Under the pieces are notes generated by a model. The model was given only the letters and a program-made list of their open reading frames with translations. It was not told the origin of the DNA and did not search any database. From Octadecabacter arcticus 238 (lineage in GTDB: Bacteria > Pseudomonadota > Alphaproteobacteria > Rhodobacterales > Rhodobacteraceae), in the NCBI RefSeq assembly GCF_000155735.2, contig NC_020908.1:2175001-2239000 (forward strand): a stretch of DNA of 64,000 nt, written 5' to 3'. A program made the translations under genes and the position numbers. Shown piece after piece: positions 12,159 through 59,659 of this stretch (positions are counted from its first letter, which is position 1; every line of letters begins with the position of its first letter).

Positions 12159-12887
12159 ATGAGCAATTTGTATTGGCTGACTGAGGCGCAGATGGAGCGT
12201 CTCCGGCCGTACTTTCCAAAGAGCCGAGGTCGTGCTCGTGTTGATGACCGTCGTGTTTTGAGTGGCATTATCTTCATCAATCGCAATGGTTTAAGGTGGT
12301 GTGATGCACCTTCCGAGTATGGACCGCCGAAGACGCTATATAATCGATGGAAGCGCTGGAGTGATATGGGCATATTTGCCCAAATCTTGATGGGGCTGGC
12401 CGAGCAGGCCCCCGACAACAAAACCATCTCAATCCCCTCTCATCGAAACTGCGTTTCGACTGCCGGGCAGTGGACGCCACCTACCTCAAAGCACATCGTA
12501 CGGCCGCCAGCCTGCGGTTAAAAAAGGGGGGCGAGGACGCCTGATCGGGTTGACCAAGGGCGGTATGAATACAAAGCTACATGCTGTCACAGACACCAGC
12601 GGACGACCAATCCGCCTCTTCATCACAGCAGGACAAGTCAGTGATTACACTGGTGCAGCCGCCTTGATGAATAATCTGCCTGAGGCTGACTGGCTCCTCG
12701 CTGACAGAGGGTACGATGCTGATTGGTTCCGTGAAACCCTTGTAGACAAGGGCACAACGCCCTGCATCCCCGGTCGCAAGTCGCGCAAAAAGACCGTCAA
12801 GTACGACAAGCGCCGTTACAAACGACGCAACCGTATCGAGAGAATGTTCGGAAGGCTCAAAGATTGGCGCCGCGTCGCAACTCGCCA
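12159..12887 (+). pseudogene. IS5-family transposase, disrupted by a 38-nt double hairpin and truncated
   Basis: The first frame (from 12159, MSNLYWLTEAQMERLRPYFPK) covers the N-terminal DUF4096-like half up to DNKTISI. After a 38-nt insertion (12435-12472) the expected sequence DATYLKAHRTA continues in another frame, then GMNTKLHAVTDTSGRP, WLLADRGYDADW and RNRIERMFGRLKDWRRVATR, where IS3 copy 1 cuts it. IS5 elements of this group often make the protein from two frames, but here removing the 38 nt restores one continuous family-like frame at that point. Confidence 0.75.
12435..12472 (+). repeat. Double-hairpin mini-insertion in IS5 transposase (element 1)
   Basis: A 38-nt insert between codons for I and D of the family sequence TISIDATYLK. 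Layout: CCCTCTCA, stem TCGAAAC, loop TGC, stem GTTTCGA, then CTGCC-G-GGCAG and TG. The same layout occurs at 19025-19066 and 19224-19260 in an unrelated IS110 transposase gene. Confidence 0.6.
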
Positions 12888-12959
12888 CCCTCCGTGCCAA
12901 TAAGCGTGAGACAATTGACTGGCTAAAGTTTACACTTGAGGGCGTAGGAGAACGAACCC

Positions 12960-13442
12960 ATGGTTATGCCTTCACAATCACCACTTTCGCCAGATGCTGG
13001 ATCTGGAGCCGTTTTGGCCCCGACGTCGCCTCCCCGCGTTGTTAATGCGCCGTTGGCTCCCACAGCGGAACTGACGAGCATCCCGAAGCGGCGCAACTTC
13101 ACAGCCAAATACAAACTGCGCATTCTGGATGAGACGGACCAAGTGGCAGACACTGGCGGGGTTTCCGCCATTCTACGGCGGGAGGGGCTTTATTCCTCTG
13201 CACTGACCGATTGGCGCCGTGCGCGGGCGGCCGGCACATTGGGTGCATTGCAGCCAATGCGCCGTGGCCCACAAAAGGCACCTGCCAATCCATTGCAAGC
13301 TGAGCTGACCAAGGCCAACCGTGAGGTGACAGCCTTGCGGCGCCGTCTGGATCAGGCGGAAGCCATCATTGCCATCCAAAAAAAAGTGGCGGGACTTCTG
13401 GACGAGATGGAGCAGACGCAAGAGCGCAGCGGCAAATCATGA
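12960..13442 (+). CDS. IS3-family OrfA (helix-turn-helix protein)
   Basis: A 160-residue protein with the IS3 OrfA helix-turn-helix ([36 protein letters not shown]) and a C-terminal Leu-rich coiled coil ([20 protein letters not shown]). It binds element ends and regulates transposition. Its last codons overlap the orfB start by 4 nt (13439-13442). IS3 elements usually make the active transposase by frameshifting between the two frames. Confidence 0.85.
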
Positions 13443-14452
13443 TGGCCGTCGCGATTGCATTGCCCACCGGCAGCGGCTTGACCTCGGCTGTCTGCGCCGC
13501 GCTATCATTATCGCGCGCGAGCGTTCTTCGACAGCGTGCGGCGCTGACGGCACCACCACGCACACGCCCACCGCGCGCAGCGTCTTCGCGGGCTCTGCCG
13601 GAAAGGGAAAGAGACCAGGTATTGCACCACCTGCGCGAACCCCGCTTTGCGGATCAGACGCCCACAGAGGTCTTTGCCACCTTGCTGGATGAAGGCACCT
13701 ATCTGTGTTCAATCCGCACGATGTATCGGATATTGGCCGCGCAGGGCGAAGTTGGCGAACGCCGCCGACAGCGCACACATCCCGTCTATCAAAAGCCTGA
13801 ACTTCTAGCTGAAGCCCCCAATCAGGTCTGGTCTTGGGACATCACCAAGCTGAGGGGCCCGGTGAAATGGTCCTACTTCTATCTCTATGTCATCCTCGAC
13901 ATCTTCAGCCGCCGCGTTGTTGGCTGGCGCGTCGAGCACGCGGAGAGCGCCAGCCAGTTCAAAGAGCTGTTCATCGACGCGATGGAAAAACACGAGGTTC
14001 CACGCGATCAGCTGACATTGCATGCAGATCGCGGTGGGCCCATGAAGGCAAAGACGACAGCTCTGATGCTGGTTGATCTTGGTGTGCTCAAGTCCCACAG
14101 TCGGCCCCACACCTCAAACGACAACCCGTTCTCCGAAGCCCACTTCAAAACACTGAAATATCAGCCAGAGTTCCCCAAGAACTTTGAAACCATCGAGCAG
14201 GCTCGCGCATTCTGCCGCAGGTTCTTTGCATGGTATAACCAAGACCATCATAACGCCGAGATTGGTCTGATGACGCCCGACCAAATCCATTTTGGGCAGA
14301 CCCAAGAAATCTACACCGCGCGACAAGCAACACTAGACGCGGCATTCCTCGCCACGCCCGAACGCTTCGTACACAAACCACCAAAACCGCCTCAAATCCC
14401 GACCGCCGTCTGGATCAACCCACCAAAACCAACCGAAGAAACCCAAGCCTAA
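13439..14452 (+). CDS. IS3-family OrfB transposase (DDE)
   Basis: A 337-residue catalytic protein with the DDE core: [27 protein letters not shown] and [13 protein letters not shown]. The N-terminal segment carries the HTH_21-type region ([23 protein letters not shown]). The frame is intact. Copies 2 and 3 encode nearly identical proteins. Confidence 0.9.
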
Positions 14453-14492
14453 AGTCCAAAAGCCACTGTCTCAAAGTCGTTGATACGTTCCG

Positions 14493-15336
14493 TATGATGC
14501 CCGGCGCGCGCGCTGCCGCCGCAAGCGCAAGCTTGTGGAGGGGAGCGATCTTTATCGTTTCGTTCATGGCAAGCTCGTACATCTGCACTGGTCGCCTGAG
14601 CAGATTGCGCAGAGACTGCGTCTCATGAAGCCTGATGATCCATCCGCCCATGTGAGCCATGAGACCATCTATGCCGCGATTTACGCGCAGCCACGTGGTG
14701 GGCTGAAGGCGGCGATGATCGAGGCGTTGCGTCAAGCGAAGCCTAAGCGTGGGCTCAAGCGCAGGACAGCGGCGGGCAGTGCTATGGTCCCGGAATCATT
14801 GCGCATTATCAACCGCCCTGAAGAGATCGAAGCGCGACTGGTACCAGGCTATTGGGAGGGCGACCTCATCAAGGGCGCATTCAATCGCTCGTCAGTGGGG
14901 ACCTTGGTCGAGCGCAAGACACGCTTTGTCATTCTTTGCAAAATGGACGGCAATGGGGCCGAGGCCGCGCTCGACAGCTTCACCCGCCAGATGAGACGAC
15001 TACCCGCTGCTTTGCGCAAGAGCATGACCTACGACCGCGGCTCCGAAATGGCCTGCCACCCCGAACTCGCCAGACGGTTGAAGATCGATATCTGGTTCTG
15101 CGATCCGCATGCGCCTTGGCAGCGTGGCAGCAACGAGAACACCAACGGACTGCTGCGTCAGTACATGCCCAAAGGAACTGACCTGAACGGTGCAAGCCAA
15201 ACATGGCTGAACGACGTTGCAAACCTGATGAACAACCGTCCGAGAAAAACTCTCGGTTGGAGAACACCCGCTGAAGCCATGGCCGACGAAATCGCGGCCT
15301 TCAAATCAACCGTTGCACTTGATGTTTGAATCCAAG
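14493..15336 (+). pseudogene. IS30-family element fragment, 5' end missing
   Basis: The sequence from tatgatgcccggcg onward corresponds to position 24002 onward of the complete IS30 copy and is almost identical to it. The catalytic pieces remain (EGDLIKGAF, YDRGSEMACH, NENTNGLLRQYMP), but roughly the first 60 residues of the transposase are lost where IS3 copy 1 joins. The right end matches the complete copy to ccaag (15336). Confidence 0.88.
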
Positions 15337-15384
15337 CCTTGTCTTGTCATGCGGGCCCAAAGCCCAAGTATCCGTTCAGGTTTC

Positions 15385-15470
15385 AAAAAAAAGACGGAGG
15401 TGACCTTACTCAGCGACGGTCCTCAACGACCAAGAGGGGAACGGTCCAACCTCCGCCGCTGCCTGGCATA
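15385..15470 (-). ncRNA. Structured RNA-like stretch with terminator, minus strand
   Basis: On the minus strand CGGAGGT (15455-15449) pairs with ACCTCCG (15401-15395), which is followed at once by eight T. The 47-nt interior can form smaller stems (for example GGTC/GACC at 15431-15418) and contains GGACCGT twice. This could be a small RNA or the attenuator of a lost gene. No known family is recognised. The surrounding 15337-15531 has no coding frame. Confidence 0.35.
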
Positions 15471-15531
15471 AATAACGTGCTGCGCAGCTGTTCCAGCTTC
15501 GCATAAAAACTGCCAAAATCATAAGACAAGA

Positions 15532-15917
15532 GGGGCCAAGCTGCATGCGGTTACAGATACCAGTGGTCGCCCGGTCCGCTTGTTTATTACTGCAGGTCAG
15601 GTGAGCGATTATACCGGCGCAGCTGCGCTAATGAATGGCCTGCCTGAAGCCGAGTGGCTCCTTGTTGACAGAGGATATGATGCTGACTGGTTCCGCGAAA
15701 CCCTTGTAGACAAGGGCACAAAGCCCTGCATCCCCGGACGCAAGTCGCGCAAAAAGACCGTCAAGTACGACAAGCGCCGTTACAAACGACGCAACCGTAT
15801 CGAGAGAATGTTCGGAAGGCTCAAAGATTGGCGCCGCGTCGCAACTCGCTACGACAGATCACCAACAGTCTTCCTCGCCGCAATCGTCATATTCTGGTTA
15901 TGAGTCCTGATCCTAGG
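15532..15917 (+). pseudogene. IS5-family element, right-hand fragment
   Basis: It encodes the C-terminal half of an IS5 transposase (KLHAVTDTSGRPVRLFITAG, WLLVDRGYDADW, RIERMFGRLKDWRRVATRYD) and ends with the right terminal repeat near 15917. It overlaps in content with the IS5 piece at 12566-12887, so it is a second copy rather than the other half of the first. Confidence 0.8.
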
Positions 15918-15973
15918 GCTTTGTTCATTTCCTATTTGATGACTATTTCGGGTATCTGCGGCATTTTTTGCGG

Positions 15974-16864
15974 TTAAGTCAGGTTTGATAATCCCAAAGC
16001 GTTTGATAGGTTCGGCAGCTCAGAAACATCTATGAGCCGGACGCCATTCTTGTCGGCCAGTTGCATTGCGGATCGTGTATAGCCACTCTTTCCAACCACG
16101 ACAGCGCTGTCGCCATCAAAAAACGTTTTCGCAGCATTAACTTCTTGCACAGCTTTGTTCCCAACTGGGCTTCTGTACAATTTGCATTGGATAATACATT
16201 TGTGGCGTCCATAAATAGCCACAACGTCTGAACCTTGATCGCCACTTCCTTGGGTTGCCTGAGCGTCCCAGCCGTGCATGTTAAGCACGCTCGCAGTCCA
16301 ATGTTCAAATTCGATTGGGTCGTGCGGGATCGTATCTATTGAAACGCCCGGAAACGCAGACTCCGCCGTTATGTAGACTTGGTCAACGACATATTCATAG
16401 AGTTCGGGTAGCAGCAGCAGGTCCTCGGAAATGTTCAGCTCAGGCAGCATAATATTCTGGTAAAAATAATTAACTTCCTTGTCGAATGCCTCGTATTTTT
16501 GTTCACCGTAGTGACCTTGGTAAACTTTCTGGCGGTAAATTTTCCCAAGGGCATCTTGGTGCTTCTCGGTGATAGTTCTGATTTGCCGATGTGCCTCTTC
16601 AATGCGCGCTTTCTCACTCCCCCCTGAATAATAACCGCCCAACGCAACAACCGTTAACAAGCCGCCCGCTACGATTGTAATCGTAGCTAAGTCGCCTTCC
16701 AGACCCTTGGACAAAAGGTAAATGAGGCCCCCAACAACAACCACGAGCACGACTATCCAGCCCTCACCTCTCTTACTTCCTGCCACAGATCTATCCTTTG
16801 ATTTCTTCACTTCTGACCCTTGTACGGGATCGAGGCCTAGCATTGCTCGTTTCACAGCTAGCAA
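15974..16864 (-). CDS. Membrane-anchored Mrr-like restriction endonuclease domain protein
   Basis: A 296-residue protein. Residues about 35-85 hold two hydrophobic segments (WIVVLVVVVGGLIYLL and ITIVAGGLLTVVALGG). A charged coiled-coil-like region follows, then a C-terminal Mrr-type PD-(D/E)xK nuclease domain: FEHWTASVLNMHGW, then GSGDQGSDVVAIY and CIIQCKLY, giving the D...QxK active-site pattern. Mrr-like proteins cut modified or foreign DNA. It stands alone, so partner genes are not evident. It may defend against foreign DNA, but that is inference. The upstream region has no clear promoter. Confidence 0.75.
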   Translation of the reverse strand: MLAVKRAMLGLDPVQGSEVKKSKDRSVAGSKRGEGWIVVLVVVVGGLIYLLSKGLEGDLATITIVAGGLLTVVALGGYYSGGSEKARIEEAHRQIRTITEKHQDALGKIYRQKVYQGHYGEQKYEAFDKEVNYFYQNIMLPELNISEDLLLLPELYEYVVDQVYITAESAFPGVSIDTIPHDPIEFEHWTASVLNMHGWDAQATQGSGDQGSDVVAIYGRHKCIIQCKLYRSPVGNKAVQEVNAAKTFFDGDSAVVVGKSGYTRSAMQLADKNGVRLIDVSELPNLSNALGLSNLT

Positions 16865-17592
16865 AAGAGCTTTAATGCCGGAGGTCTAACTGTGTCGCTG
16901 ATCCAACAATCATACAACAAGAAATGCCTCTAAAAAATATGAAAAAATCTGTAGTTGCGCGTACTTTGCTATAAGGTGTTTGCCCGCTTTATTTTCATAC
17001 CGGTTTAGCTCAAAATACTTTCGTTAGCAGGTCACGCACCAGATACTTCTGAACGTTGGCGATACACAATGAGCCATGCCTTGCTTACCGCCTCTTCACA
17101 TCAGCAGGCCGTCACCGTGGTGCTTATCGCCAAGCGTTCCAGCAGCCAAGAATATGATGAGAATCATGGGGGCTGACGATATGTCGGATCTCCCCCCCAT
17201 CATTCGCCTGCCAAACACGATTAATCTGCCAGTCCTGATAGGCCCAAGCGAACCGTTAAGATCAAACTAGAAGTCGTTCGAAGGCACGCCCATACTTGCG
17301 CGTTTAACCCAATGGACCGCAGTTCTGGGTGCGAAGGAGTGCAATAAACCTCAGTTGGGGCAAGATTGGTCTCGGCAGCCCGCCCCTTGTGTATCTTATG
17401 AATGCCCACAAGCAAGCAGACAAAAAGGATTTTCGCAGAGGCGGTGCTGTAATTGAGCGGCCCCATCTCAGAAAATAATCTCTAAATTTATTGTATGATT
17501 GGTCTTTGGTCCATCGTTGCGATAATTGCCAAATGCTGCCAATCGTCTGAGAAACCGTGTTTGAACACCCAGTTATGAAGGGGCGCAGCAAG
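16865..17592 (+). other. Gap with no recognisable gene
   Basis: About 730 nt without a frame resembling any family I know. Short frames are present in all directions but look random. It is probably decayed IS or intergenic DNA. Confidence 0.5.
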
Positions 17593-18060
17593 ATGGATAT
17601 TAACCCAACGTGGGAATACGTCGCTGACAATGTAATGGGTGGCGTGTCCAACGGCGACATGCGCCAAGAAACGTATCAAGGCCGCAAGGCGTCCGTCTTG
17701 TACGGGGATGTGTCGCTGGACAACAATGGTGGTTTTATACAGATCGCTTGCAATCTAGGCGCTGATGAAAACACTTTTGATGCAAGCGAATGGACTGGCC
17801 TTGAACTGGACGTTAGCGGCAATGGCGAACGATACGATATTCGCCTACGCACTGACCAACTGACGCGGCCATGGCAATCTTTTAGAACTGAGTTCACGGC
17901 GCCACAAGAATGGCAGACGCTTCTGGTACCGTTTGACACGTTCATATCGCATAAAACTGACGCCATATTTGATCCGGCACAGCTTCGTCGGGTCGGTATT
18001 CTTGCAGTTGGTCGCGAGTTTAAGGCACACGTGGCTATCGCAGGCATACGGTTGTACTGA
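17593..18060 (+). CDS. CIA30-family (complex I intermediate-associated 30-like) protein
   Basis: A 155-residue beta-sandwich protein with the CIA30 signature WEYVADNVMGGVSNGDM near the N-terminus and DVSLDNNGGFIQI, FTAPQEWQTLLVPFDTF and RRVGILAVG further on. Relatives in mitochondria assist complex I assembly; bacterial members are uncharacterised and contain a galactose-binding-like fold. The start at 17593 is chosen over 17557 because the domain begins right there and AGGGG lies about 10 nt upstream. It is a single gene between the gap and IS110. Confidence 0.8.
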   Translation: MDINPTWEYVADNVMGGVSNGDMRQETYQGRKASVLYGDVSLDNNGGFIQIACNLGADENTFDASEWTGLELDVSGNGERYDIRLRTDQLTRPWQSFRTEFTAPQEWQTLLVPFDTFISHKTDAIFDPAQLRRVGILAVGREFKAHVAIAGIRLY

Positions 18061-18934
18061 GTTTGTAATCAGTACCGCGACGATGCGCGCCACTTCACTT
18101 CAGTCGTTCAAACTGGCTTTGATGATGTAACCGCCGCCCGACGGCATCGATGCGCCAAGATGGGTCTGCAATGATCCACAAAAAGGAGAGCGGTCATGTC
18201 AGATATTACCACAGTCGGTCTCGATTTGGCGAAGAATGTATTCCAAGTACATGGAGCTGATGGCGCAGGCCAAGCGGTTCTGCGCAAGAAGTTACGTCGA
18301 ACGCAGGTCTTGGCGTTTTTCGGCCAACTTCCGCGATGCGTGGTTGCGATGGAAGCGTGCGGCGGCGCGCATTTCTGGGGCCGTGAGATTGATAAGCTGG
18401 GCCACGAAGTGCGCCTAATCCCGCCCGCTTACGTCAAACCCTTCGTTAAACGCCAAAAGAATGATGCCGCTGATGCTGAAGCGATTTGCCAAGCAGCGGT
18501 ACGCCCATCGATGCGCTTCGTGCCGGTGAAGAGCGAAGATGTGCAGGCTACAGTCATGGTCTTCCGGGCCCGGGAGCTGCTGATCCGTCAGCGCACACAA
18601 ACCATCAATGCGCTTCTCGGCCACCTGACGGAGTTTGGAGAGGTGGTTCCCCTGGGCGCAGCGAACGCAGCGCGTCTGATTGTGATCATAGAGGATCCGG
18701 CAAGTTGCTTGCCGGAGGAAGCTCGGGCAACATTGCTGGTTCTGATCGAGACGAAGACCCGCCTCGACGGCCAGATGGCTAAGCTCAACGCAGAGATCAG
18801 TCGGCGTGCCAAAGAGAATGAGGTGGCGTGCAGGCTGATGACGATCCCGGGAATTGGGCCGTTGATCGCCACGGCTCTGGTTGCCCTCGCGCCGCCCCCT
18901 GAGACCTTCCGCAGAGGGCGCGATTTTGCAGCGT

Positions 18935-18961
18935 CGTGCTGCAAGCACGCCTCTGGCGTGA
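18935..18961 (+). repeat. Hairpin mini-insertion in IS110 transposase (element 4, 27 nt)
   Basis: CGTGCT-GCA-AGCACG followed by CCTCTGGCGTGA. Removing these 27 nt gives AASLGLVP, one codon base from the family's AAWLGLVP. It keeps frame, adding nine residues. It lacks the CCCTCTC leader seen in elements 1-3, so membership is uncertain. Confidence 0.4.
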
Positions 18962-19024
18962 CGCTCGGGCTTGTGCCGCGACAACACTCGACTGGCGGCA
19001 AGCAGAGGCTCGGGGCGACGACGA

Positions 19025-19066
19025 CCCTTTCGGGACATTGCGTGCCGCAATGCCCTGCCCGGCAGT
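19025..19066 (+). repeat. Double-hairpin mini-insertion in IS110 transposase (element 3, 42 nt)
   Basis: Layout: CCCTTTCGGGA, stem CATTGCG, loop TGC, stem CGCAATG, CC, then CTGCC-C-GGCAG and T. Removal restores codons for TTRMGDR against a family TTKMGDR. The 3' hairpin and TGC loop match element 1 at 12435. Confidence 0.6.
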
Positions 19067-19223
19067 GAATGGGAGATCGGTCTTTGCGGCGACGGCTGAT
19101 TATTGGCGCCAACAGTGTCATTATAAAGCGGCATGTCCATCCAATGGCCGGATCGGGCACTTGGCTGGGAGGGGTGCTTTTGCGCAAGCCACCGATGCTT
19201 GTGCGGGTGGCGCTGGCGAACAC

Positions 19224-19260
19224 CCCTCTCACACATGCAAGCATGTGTTGACGGGCAACG
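19224..19260 (+). repeat. Double-hairpin mini-insertion in IS110 transposase (element 2, 37 nt)
   Basis: Layout: CCCTCTCA, stem CACATGC, AA, stem GCATGTG, then TTG-ACGGG-CAA and CG. Removal restores ALANTMARIVWAL against a family ALANKMAR. The first eight bases are identical to element 1. Confidence 0.6.
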
Positions 19261-23759: not shown

Positions 23760-24845
23760 CTTAGGCTCAAGTTTCAAATGCAACACTCAGAGCCCTTTGG
23801 GCATAGGATGTTGTGATGGACATACGAAGCAAGCACCTCAGCAGCGAGGACCGTGGCGTGATATTAGCCGAGCATAATAGGGGCAGCAGTCAGCGGTTGA
23901 TCGGCCAGCTTTTGCATCGCCCGGCGAGCACGATCTGCCGTGAGCTGGCGCGAGGTCGGCAGGAAGACGGCAGCTATTGCCCGCAAGCGGCGCGGCAGGC
24001 CTATGATGCCCGGCGTGCGCGCTGCCGCCGCGAGCGCAAGCTTGTGGAGGGGAGCGATCTTTATCGTTTTGTTCATGGCAAGCTCGTACATCTGCACTGG
24101 TCGCCTGAGCAGATTGCGCAGAGACTGCGTCTCATGAAGCCTGATGATCCATCCGCCCATGTGAGCCATGAGACCATCTATGCCGCGATTTACGCGCAGC
24201 CACGTGGTGGGCTGAAGGCGGCGATGATCGAGGCGTTGCGTCAAGCGAAGCCTAAGCGTGGGCTCAAGCGCAGGACAGCGGCGGGCAGTGCTATGGTCCC
24301 GGAATCATTGCGCATTATCAATCGCCCTGAAGAGATCGAAGCGCGACTGGTACCAGGCCATTGGGAGGGCGACCTCATCAAGGGCGCATTCAATCGCTCG
24401 TCAGTGGGGACCTTGGTCGAGCGCAAGACACGCTTTGTCATTCTTTGCAAAATGGACGGCAATGGGGCCGAGGCCGCGCTCGACAGCTTCACCCGCCAGA
24501 TGAGACGACTACCCGCTGCTTTGCGCAAGAGCATGACCTACGACCGCGGCTCCGAAATGGCCTGCCACCCCGAACTCGCCAGACGGTTGAAGATCGATAT
24601 CTGGTTCTGCGATCCGCATGCGCCTTGGCAGCGTGGCAGCAACGAGAACACCAACGGACTGCTGCGTCAGTACATGCCCAAAGGAACTGACCTGAACGGT
24701 GCAAGCCAAACATGGCTGAACGACGTTGCAAACCTGATGAACAACCGTCCGAGAAAAACTCTCGGTTGGAGAACACCCGCTGAAGCCATGGCCGACGAAA
24801 TCGCGGCCTTCAAATCAACCGTTGCACTTGATGTTTGAATCCAAG
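23760..24845 (+). mobile_element. IS30-family element, complete
   Basis: Imperfect 25-bp inverted ends (CTTAGGCTCAAG... and, reversed, CTTGGATTCAAA...) are flanked by a 3-bp duplication AAC (23757-23759 and 24846-24848), the size expected for IS30. Confidence 0.88.
23816..24838 (+). CDS. IS30-family transposase
   Basis: A 340-residue protein with the N-terminal helix-turn-helix (LSSEDRGVILAEHNRGSSQR, RPASTICREL) and DDE core (HWEGDLIKGAF, YDRGSEMACH, GSNENTNGLLRQYMPK). The GTG-ATG start region favours the ATG at 23816. The frame is intact, and the truncated copy at 14493 is nearly identical. Confidence 0.92.
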   Translation: MDIRSKHLSSEDRGVILAEHNRGSSQRLIGQLLHRPASTICRELARGRQEDGSYCPQAARQAYDARRARCRRERKLVEGSDLYRFVHGKLVHLHWSPEQIAQRLRLMKPDDPSAHVSHETIYAAIYAQPRGGLKAAMIEALRQAKPKRGLKRRTAAGSAMVPESLRIINRPEEIEARLVPGHWEGDLIKGAFNRSSVGTLVERKTRFVILCKMDGNGAEAALDSFTRQMRRLPAALRKSMTYDRGSEMACHPELARRLKIDIWFCDPHAPWQRGSNENTNGLLRQYMPKGTDLNGASQTWLNDVANLMNNRPRKTLGWRTPAEAMADEIAAFKSTVALDV

Positions 24846-59380: not shown

Positions 59381-59659
59381 GAACATCCCCTACAATACGC
59401 ACATATGCTTACCCCACCGTCCATGTGGAACAAAGCTATGAAGTCTGGCCGGTCTTCTGACTGGGGGTCATTTGAACTGCGTGCCTTCCCGGATTTCTCC
59501 AGTGGCGTTTTACACAGACCATCACCCTTTACAGCGTTGGGTGAGAACGGCAGTGCAAAAGTGAGCCACGGAAGTGGCAGGATTATCTTGCTGCAGGCAA
59601 AGTAAAACTTTGCCACTTTAGTCTTTTCTGTTTTCAGGGAGGGCGGGAGTATTTTCAGC

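Follow-up and report, generated by a model that had tools for sequence, protein, structure and literature searches.

Short double-hairpin elements interrupt transposase genes of Octadecabacter and related marine bacteria

Small inserts that fold into hairpins or interrupt genes are known from several settings. Rickettsia palindromic elements lie within protein genes of Alphaproteobacteria, are longer than the element described here, and are kept in frame. Mitochondrial double-hairpin elements, as in Allomyces, place two hairpins in a few dozen nucleotides and are mobile, with no known partner. Among bacteria, REP, BIME, and REPIN sequences with RAYT are palindromic repeats of 20-40 nt that occur in many copies, with several stem families per genome (PMC3733652, in part), and short inserts in coding sequence are described for phage T4 gene 60 and for Magnusiomyces mitochondria, where there are many per genome (PMC5009743, in part). 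Here we describe inserts of about 40 nt found in a 64,000-nt stretch of Octadecabacter arcticus 238 (G000:C1:2175001-2239000, hereafter the window), whose genome (G000) has 5,478,249 bases in three contigs. They belong to a real and abundant family of mobile double-hairpin elements that resides mainly in transposase genes of Roseobacter-related marine bacteria. For the two Octadecabacter genomes, the paper that describes them (PMC3646047) gives 1175 and 626 genes of transposable elements, with pseudogenes counted among these, and pseudogene totals of 411 and 361; its main text lacks the words "palindrom" and "repeat", and a literature search over titles and the beginnings of abstracts did not find the element named.

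The consensus comprises a CCCTYTC leader, a variable hairpin, the palindrome CTGCCGGGCAG, and a final YG, mostly within 37-43 nt. Stems are of two types: type I has seven or eight pairs, and type II has two or three pairs, a bulged base, and then six or more pairs. An initial annotation of the window, made from its letters, had placed three such inserts in an IS5 and an IS110 gene, and direct reading confirmed all three along with their shared layout of a CCCTCTC or CCCTTTC leader, a perfect hairpin, a second palindrome, then YG, then G or A. Its further proposal that excising each insert gives the expected transposase reading also held. Element 1 (12435-12472, + strand; 38 nt) has the type I stem ATCGAAACTGCGTTTCGA, in which TCGAAAC pairs with GTTTCGA around a TGC loop, followed by CTGCCGGGCAG and TG, and scores 52.8 bits with R1, one of two covariance models (R1 and R2) of the element. 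It splits an IS5-family transposase between ...KTISI and DATYLKAH..., with a GAC codon directly 3'. The part of the gene 5' of the insert lies at 12159-12434 (+ strand), and the 3' part, truncated at its 3' end in this copy, occupies 12473-12903 (+ strand), with a Pfam DDE_Tnp_1 match on 12550-12903 (E 1.7e-16). The site is empty in G000 at G000:C1:1557471 and 3707684, where two copies match the 41-nt query at every base. In the same gene, an A-run followed by a G-run at 12518-12532 (AAAAAAGGGGGG) accompanies a shift of reading frame near 12522; this resembles a programmed orfA/orfB frameshift and is present in those group 1 copies whose sequence covers that point.

Elements 2 and 3 lie in one IS110-family transposase gene, all parts of which are on the + strand. 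The part 5' of element 2 lies at 18196-19024, and Pfam DEDD_Tnp_IS110 matches 18196-19068 (E 3.5e-15). Element 2 (19025-19067, + strand; R2 56.3 bits) has the type II stem GGG-A-CATTGCG..CGCAATG-CCC, that is, CATTGCG/CGCAATG around a TGC loop with outer GGG/CCC pairs and a bulged A, followed by CTGCCCGGCAG and TG. With this TG it is 43 nt long and ends one base beyond the 19066 first assigned to it (removal of those 42 nt keeps the frame, as read by eye), whereas the borders first given for elements 1 and 3 stand. The nearest insert-free homologue of element 2, at locus L115 (homologues and other loci carry "L" handles), is 77% identical, with the joint shifted by one base, and a second copy of the element is found in L031. 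Between the two elements the gene is open in the expected frame at 19068-19223, read directly. Element 3 (19224-19260, + strand; 37 nt; R1 50 bits) has a type I stem, ACACATGC/GCATGTGT, with an AA loop, then the palindrome TTGACGGGCAA and CG. The initial annotation had given all three stems as perfect and 7 bp long, which is correct for elements 1 and 2; that of element 3 has 8 bp. For element 3, excision is based on the expected IS110 reading.

A fourth, shorter hairpin insert had been described in the same IS110 gene at 18935-18961 (+ strand; 27 nt). About 27 nt there, in frame, are indeed lacking in L115 and present in L013 and L031, the two copies of this IS110 in G000 that were compared, and the insert matches neither R1 nor R2; the comparison identifies it as a real insertion of another type, outside the double-hairpin family. 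No further family member was found in the window by R1 or R2 at E values up to 0.5, the search giving in addition a weak reverse-strand match at 19053-19073 on the palindrome of element 2, and Rfam, searched over the window at gathering scores, has no match at the inserts.

Beyond the window, pairing is kept in stems of freely varying sequence. In alignments of 15 (type I) and 11 (type II) hand-picked sequences, each of the seven type I pairs and of the eight type II pairs has both its bases replaced in at least one sequence. Of the cells in these hand-picked rows, 98.8% and 98.5% are paired, against 69.4% and 75.8% after shuffling. Unpicked sequences behave similarly: of 154 distinct inner sequences, 107 form a stem with 6 bp or more in a row, compared with 6.5% of shuffled ones, and 196 of 226 copies reach 6 bp when one mismatch is allowed. 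A set of 214 copies distinct by their flanks, retrieved via the constant leader and palindrome, begins with CCCTYTC and ends with CAG; YG follows CAG in 205, G or A comes next in 199, and A after that in 187. One locus (L026/L027, G000:C1:3942007-3942070) holds two opposite elements with one common palindrome, a head-to-head composite.

A genome search with the structure pattern had been proposed beforehand as a test, and further copies do occur. The strict pattern, CCCTYTC-N15-40-CTGCCNGGCAG, has 37 matches in G000 against none for the reversed pattern used as control, and 164 in G006, a second Octadecabacter genome taken as O. antarcticus 307 (contig of 4,812,600 bases). R1, with 150 candidates scored per genome, finds 88 copies in G000 and at least 150 in G006, so the strict pattern underestimates copy number. 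Of 195 genomes scanned, 44 have strict matches: G000 itself, 39 of the 119 further members of its family, and 4 of 75 genomes from other families. Because the reversed control also matches six genomes of the same family and three of other families, a few of the 39 and probably all four from other families are due to chance; matches without a good stem in G058 and G078 are examples. A stricter pattern gave at least 119 stretches in named genomes. Among the matches listed, 75 of 80 titles are Rhodobacteraceae or Rhodobacterales, with genera assigned by general knowledge, and the other five are two Vreelandella, one Hyphomicrobiales, and two unplaced Alphaproteobacteria. The element is also present in 94 plasmid records, and the ten genera in this tally presumably all belong to the Rhodobacteraceae/Rhodobacterales group. 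The 86-kb Dinoroseobacter shibae plasmid pDSHI04 (NC_009958.1) has seven matches; the one inspected lies between listed genes, in a table that omits pseudogenes. In a Sulfitobacter pontiacus plasmid (L334, 2501-2545), a frame-keeping copy lies inside an annotated IS3 family transposase.

Insert-free sites exist for many copies, so homologues do not all carry the inserts as normal sequence. In L030, for example, the order is GGCTCCGA, element, AATGGCC, and intact IS30 copies in the window read GGCTCCGAAATGGCC; one of these, of which 24436-24673 (+ strand) is a part, provides the empty site (GGCTCCGA then AATGGCC) of the element in L018, L025, L030, and L033, and a second lies at 14927-15164. 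For 117 of 203 copies with enough flank, a homologue among the fetched loci bridges the joint and few gaps are needed. In these alignments the joint is often exact if YG is taken as the end of the element, and elsewhere it is one to three bases off; the homologues are 98 to 68% identical. When gaps were penalized harder, and CCC..CAG plus two bases was removed from each copy, an insert-free homologue aligns over at least 72 nt and is gap-free at the joint for 113 of the 203. No target duplication is seen at element sites compared with insert-free homologues. Of 74 distinct sites, 54 have G as the first base 3' of the joint, 54 have A as the second, and 63 have T or C as the third. As in IS200/IS605 miniature elements, insertion is scarless and next to a short target that is conserved.

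The hosts are mainly insertion sequence (IS) genes, and the inserts lie in either orientation. For 86 of the 113 gap-free joints the reading frame is confident; 53 inserts are sense (36, 3, and 14 in phases 0, 1, and 2) and 33 antisense (24, 5, and 4). All Pfam matches among 78 host pieces of at least 30 residues from these 86 are IS-related, the first piece having no match, and NCBIfam adds a few other names (DnaA, Hda, ATP-binding protein, hypothetical protein), taken to be the AAA domain of IstB. This sample leans toward repeated genes because a homologue among the loci was required. A wider set, assigned by protein homology, gives a strand for 169 of 226 copies (98 sense and 71 antisense); among strandless copies whose stem is good, inspection by eye still reveals many transposases, and several copies, for example L047, L116, L120, L203, and L206, are unplaced. 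Within G000, 33 of the 37 strict copies lie inside transposase or integrase genes as read by eye, and four are ambiguous (L006, L016, L017, and L032). Many sense sites are directly 5' of an Asp codon in conserved transposase motifs (MI|DATYLKAH, LLI|DSTGIK, and VTA|DGAYDT), and some of these Asp residues are catalytic; the G-A-Y target alone yields Asp codons. The same sites have been struck in several genera with differing stems. As judged from these alignments, the element inserts without target duplication, favors G-A-Y after its YG, takes either orientation, and repeatedly enters the same transposase sites.

Exchange among IS copies is also evident. Three copies of one IS3 (L096, L223, and L224), 98-99.9% identical over about 1.6 kb, each carry three or four strict inserts, together with about five variants in both orientations, of which two are weak matches; at the first site the stem is type II in L223 and type I in L096 and L224. 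Similarly, L314 and L315 belong to a tight clade with the insert-free L330, yet have different stems at one site. Near-identical host copies are thus seen to differ in stem, and we do not take a shared insert position as proof of descent. Pairs of diverged IS5 genes with the same insert have a third-position identity of 0.605 locally against 0.511 overall (96 pairs), and pairs with different inserts at one site show no rise (0.484 local against 0.468 overall; 78 pairs). From the stem swaps and the local rise in identity, the inserts seem to move both alone and by conversion, and their passage between IS copies by local gene conversion can be regarded as shown in part. The comparisons further show that IS copies have moved and multiplied together with the inserts that they carry.

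We consider it probable that these elements constitute a new family of mobile palindromes that are non-autonomous, insert scarlessly, and prefer certain sites, with IS transposition and gene conversion adding to their spread. The initial annotation had proposed a mobile palindromic unit of fixed layout and variable stems, and the many copies and empty sites bear this out. A recombinase acting in trans would recognize a folded strand, as single-stranded or cruciform DNA, and paste it scarlessly; such recognition would explain the free stems with kept pairing, the lack of target duplication, and the indifference to orientation. IS genes would be the main hosts on account of their number, dispensability, and horizontal mobility.

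What the inserts do to their hosts is a separate question. Insert lengths show no bias toward multiples of three, 35 of 214 being divisible by three and 179 disrupting the frame; L097 and L334 are single in-frame cases. An open reading frame test of excision lengths in these 214 copies (189 spanning frames of at least 300 nt without excision against 173-186 with it) is uninformative because long chance frames are common. On balance, with a little better than an even chance, the inserts are dead passengers, which kill the IS copies that they enter and are amplified by helper copies, with nothing skipped. Insert-free sister copies do exist. When young copies of the IS5 in the window are compared, six of them with the insert and two without, there are about 15 non-synonymous to 6 synonymous places, so that purifying selection on this IS5 is not seen among them. 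The ratio of non-synonymous to synonymous substitution rates (dN/dS) is likewise near neutral for L326-L331 (0.85) and L293-L296 (1.3; 4 synonymous to 16 non-synonymous).

Other IS5 genes fit this account less well. In a spliced protein alignment, 35 IS5 loci picked by search rank and fragmentary state include genes with up to about ten inserts. Several with five to eight called inserts have no other stop or frameshift: L277 (5 inserts, 306 codons), L321 (6, 306), L323 (7, 242), and L328 (8 called, 284; the last three calls are odd); copies with 9-10 inserts have one or two further lesions. Insert calls are doubtful, owing to other insertions, chance, or truncation, in L318, L320, L325, L329, L332, and parts of L328, L321, and L323; L318, L319, L320, L329, L332, and the near-duplicate L284 were left out of the dN/dS tables. 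Other inserts also occur in IS5 genes. In L149 and L213, a second hairpin insert, about 46 nt long and not related to the element (GTGAGGCGGGACCGTCGCCCC...), lies upstream of it at the same IS5 place, and inserts of about 61 nt (GCCCCGGGGCGTCGCCC...; CCAGGGC...) at coding-sequence position 585 in L326, L327, and L322 and at 642 in L313 and L328 are possibly a further family.

For pairs with near-identical shared inserts, dN/dS over all codons is 0.26 for L326-L327 (47 synonymous to 47 non-synonymous), 0.18 for L321-L323 (27 to 16), 0.32 for L316-L317 (7 to 7, p 0.05), and 0.25 for L322-L326. The last was rejected as a clean pair, being a mosaic: its codons 130-260 are near identical, and its codons 0-90 differ by 37%. 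As L326-L327 is also nearly identical over codons 150-250, gene conversion is at work. Outside the near-identical block, dN/dS is 0.25 for L326-L327 (p 9e-5; codons 100-150 and 250-275), or 0.42 (p 0.06) in codons 110-150 alone, and 0.19 for L321-L323 (p 2e-3; codons 120-195). Within 8 codons of shared inserts it is 0.29 for L326-L327 (p 1e-3), 0.49 for L321-L323 (p 0.39), and 0.61 for L316-L317 (p 0.55), and the synonymous divergence of L321-L323 is lower near shared inserts than elsewhere. A further IS5, with one antisense insert and an in-frame TGA, is present in 22 copies in G006, six of which are 99.9-100% identical to L249 over 1093 bp; neither G006 nor G000 matches a 32-nt insert-free pattern with up to three mismatches allowed. 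G006 does contain intact relatives that lack the insert and have the same 17-nt outer terminal repeat.

The unbroken remainder of the genes with five to eight called inserts, and the low dN/dS of L326-L327 and L321-L323 both overall and outside the converted block, are difficult for dead passengers. Together with the 22-copy IS5, for which the 32-nt pattern found no insert-free version in either genome, they hint at a different behavior, in which mobile inserts act like introns or bypassed sequences: they would be skipped in translation, cut from RNA, or excised from DNA, and the genes would stay under selection. Conversion and helper IS copies confound these hints. The copies may be mosaics of genes that were selected before gaining inserts, the ratios near shared inserts are non-significant for L321-L323 and L316-L317, and insert-free relatives could move the 22-copy IS in trans; the young window-IS5 copies, L326-L331, and L293-L296 are near neutral, and the 9-10-insert copies have other lesions. 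In view of conversion, helper copies, and the near-neutral pairs, we regard skipping or excision as possible but doubtful.

Insertion in both orientations with unrelated ends is hard to reconcile with an RNA or ribosome signal. The initial annotation had likened the inserts to mitochondrial byp elements, a likeness that is not supported: as read by eye, inserts in sense orientation and phase 0 have GTG or GCG at their end and follow codons such as ATC or GCC, and since the insert ends do not repeat the preceding codon, the classical match of take-off and landing sites is absent. Classical ribosomal bypassing is therefore not supported by what we read in the DNA, and an orientation-blind process at the DNA level would be a better fit than gene 60-type bypassing. 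DNA excision before transposition, for its part, should leave insert-free daughters, which the 22-copy IS does not show. We offer only tentatively, as rather improbable, the idea of bacterial intron-like elements of about 40 nt, up to ten precise inserts in either orientation per gene, with the protein still made via skipping or excision by a mechanism not known from bacteria.

Several points weigh against the reading that we prefer, that of a new family of non-autonomous mobile palindromes. Some cuts need one base less or more to restore the frame, and in some, for example L003 and L028, it is restored only with one leader C counted as host. Homology assigns no coding strand to 57 of the 226 copies, some of which may be intergenic. 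The concentration in IS genes exceeds what dispensability alone would produce, because intergenic DNA would be expected as a target too. No jump has been observed, and movement as a single strand is inferred. Finally, no autonomous partner was found in a search of 14 hand-chosen genomes, 6 element-bearing and 8 element-free. Y1 (IS200) tyrosine transposases have 48, 24, 1, and 1 matches in G000, G006, G025, and G082, and none in the element-bearing drafts G085 (18 copies) and G053 (7 copies). Y2 (IS91) transposases occur in five of the six element-bearing genomes, the exception being G082 (10 copies), a draft of about 490 contigs. The termini of both groups, as described below, are unlike the element.

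Miniature REP-like elements moved by a Y1 transposase, of the IS200/IS605 or RAYT kind, would account for the hairpins, the scarless insertion, and the one-sided target preference, all of which recall the Y1 group. Most Y1 matches lie in the two richest genomes, none was found in the eight element-free genomes, and the left part of a G000 IS200 contains the CCCTCTC heptamer. This explanation is nevertheless unlikely, given G085 and G053, the termini of the one G000 IS200 group compared by eye (TTTACTTTCC...GTCGTTCAGT), and the lack of a GTAG or CGTC tag on the element. In the left part of the IS200 at L238, a long inverted repeat with CCCTCTC and GAGAGGG as its arms precedes the transposase gene and lacks the palindrome.

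We think still less likely that the element is cargo of rolling-circle IS91/ISCR-like transposases. Rolling-circle elements generally leave no target duplication, and Y2 has matches in five of the six element-bearing genomes and none in the eight element-free ones. Presence of Y2 is confounded with IS richness in genomes chosen by hand, however; G082 has no match, and IS91 termini (e.g., CAAGCACTAAATCGC...CCTACACCA) in G000, G053, and G006 are unlike the element, as compared by eye at 12 loci with one or both termini read in each. In one IS91 group, a tandem duplication of about 31 nt is common to L341, L342, and L343 relative to L338. A group II intron derivative is not supported, the maturase domain GIIM being found in none of the 14 genomes, including the 6 element-bearing ones.

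Apart from these elements, the sole Rfam match of the window at gathering scores is a cobalamin riboswitch at 59430-59635 on the - strand (41.6 bits).

The double-hairpin family would be among the smallest mobile DNA families known to us; its anatomy is clear, its target is defined, and empty sites are available. It is carried by many marine bacteria, including the laboratory strain Dinoroseobacter shibae DFL 12. The mobilizing enzyme should be findable. If interrupted transposases do work, apparent pseudogenes of bacteria would hide an intron- or bypass-like layer.

In kind, the element belongs with the small palindromic mobile repeats; in anatomy, target, and habitat it differs from the named families tested. 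It shares with REP, BIME, and REPIN sequences its size, copy number, and several stem families per genome, but the GTAG or CGTC terminal tag is absent from the 214 distinct copies and no Y1 partner fits. REPs, moreover, are mainly intergenic (PMC3733652, in part), whereas the element lies mainly inside transposase genes. Bacterial miniature inverted-repeat transposable elements (MITEs) and other small mobile sequences are likewise non-autonomous and presumably moved in trans, and the element differs from them in having neither terminal inverted repeats nor target duplication. Phage T4 gene 60 and the Magnusiomyces inserts (PMC5009743, in part) are alike in being short and within coding sequence; the element, known here from its DNA, lacks matching take-off and landing codons and occurs in both orientations. 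A likeness to Rickettsia palindromic elements, suggested in the initial annotation, extends to their location in alphaproteobacterial protein genes and fails on frame, since those elements are kept in frame and only 35 of the 214 lengths here are divisible by three, the other 179 being disruptive. The mitochondrial double-hairpin elements resemble the element in layout and mobility, and, unlike it, are organellar.

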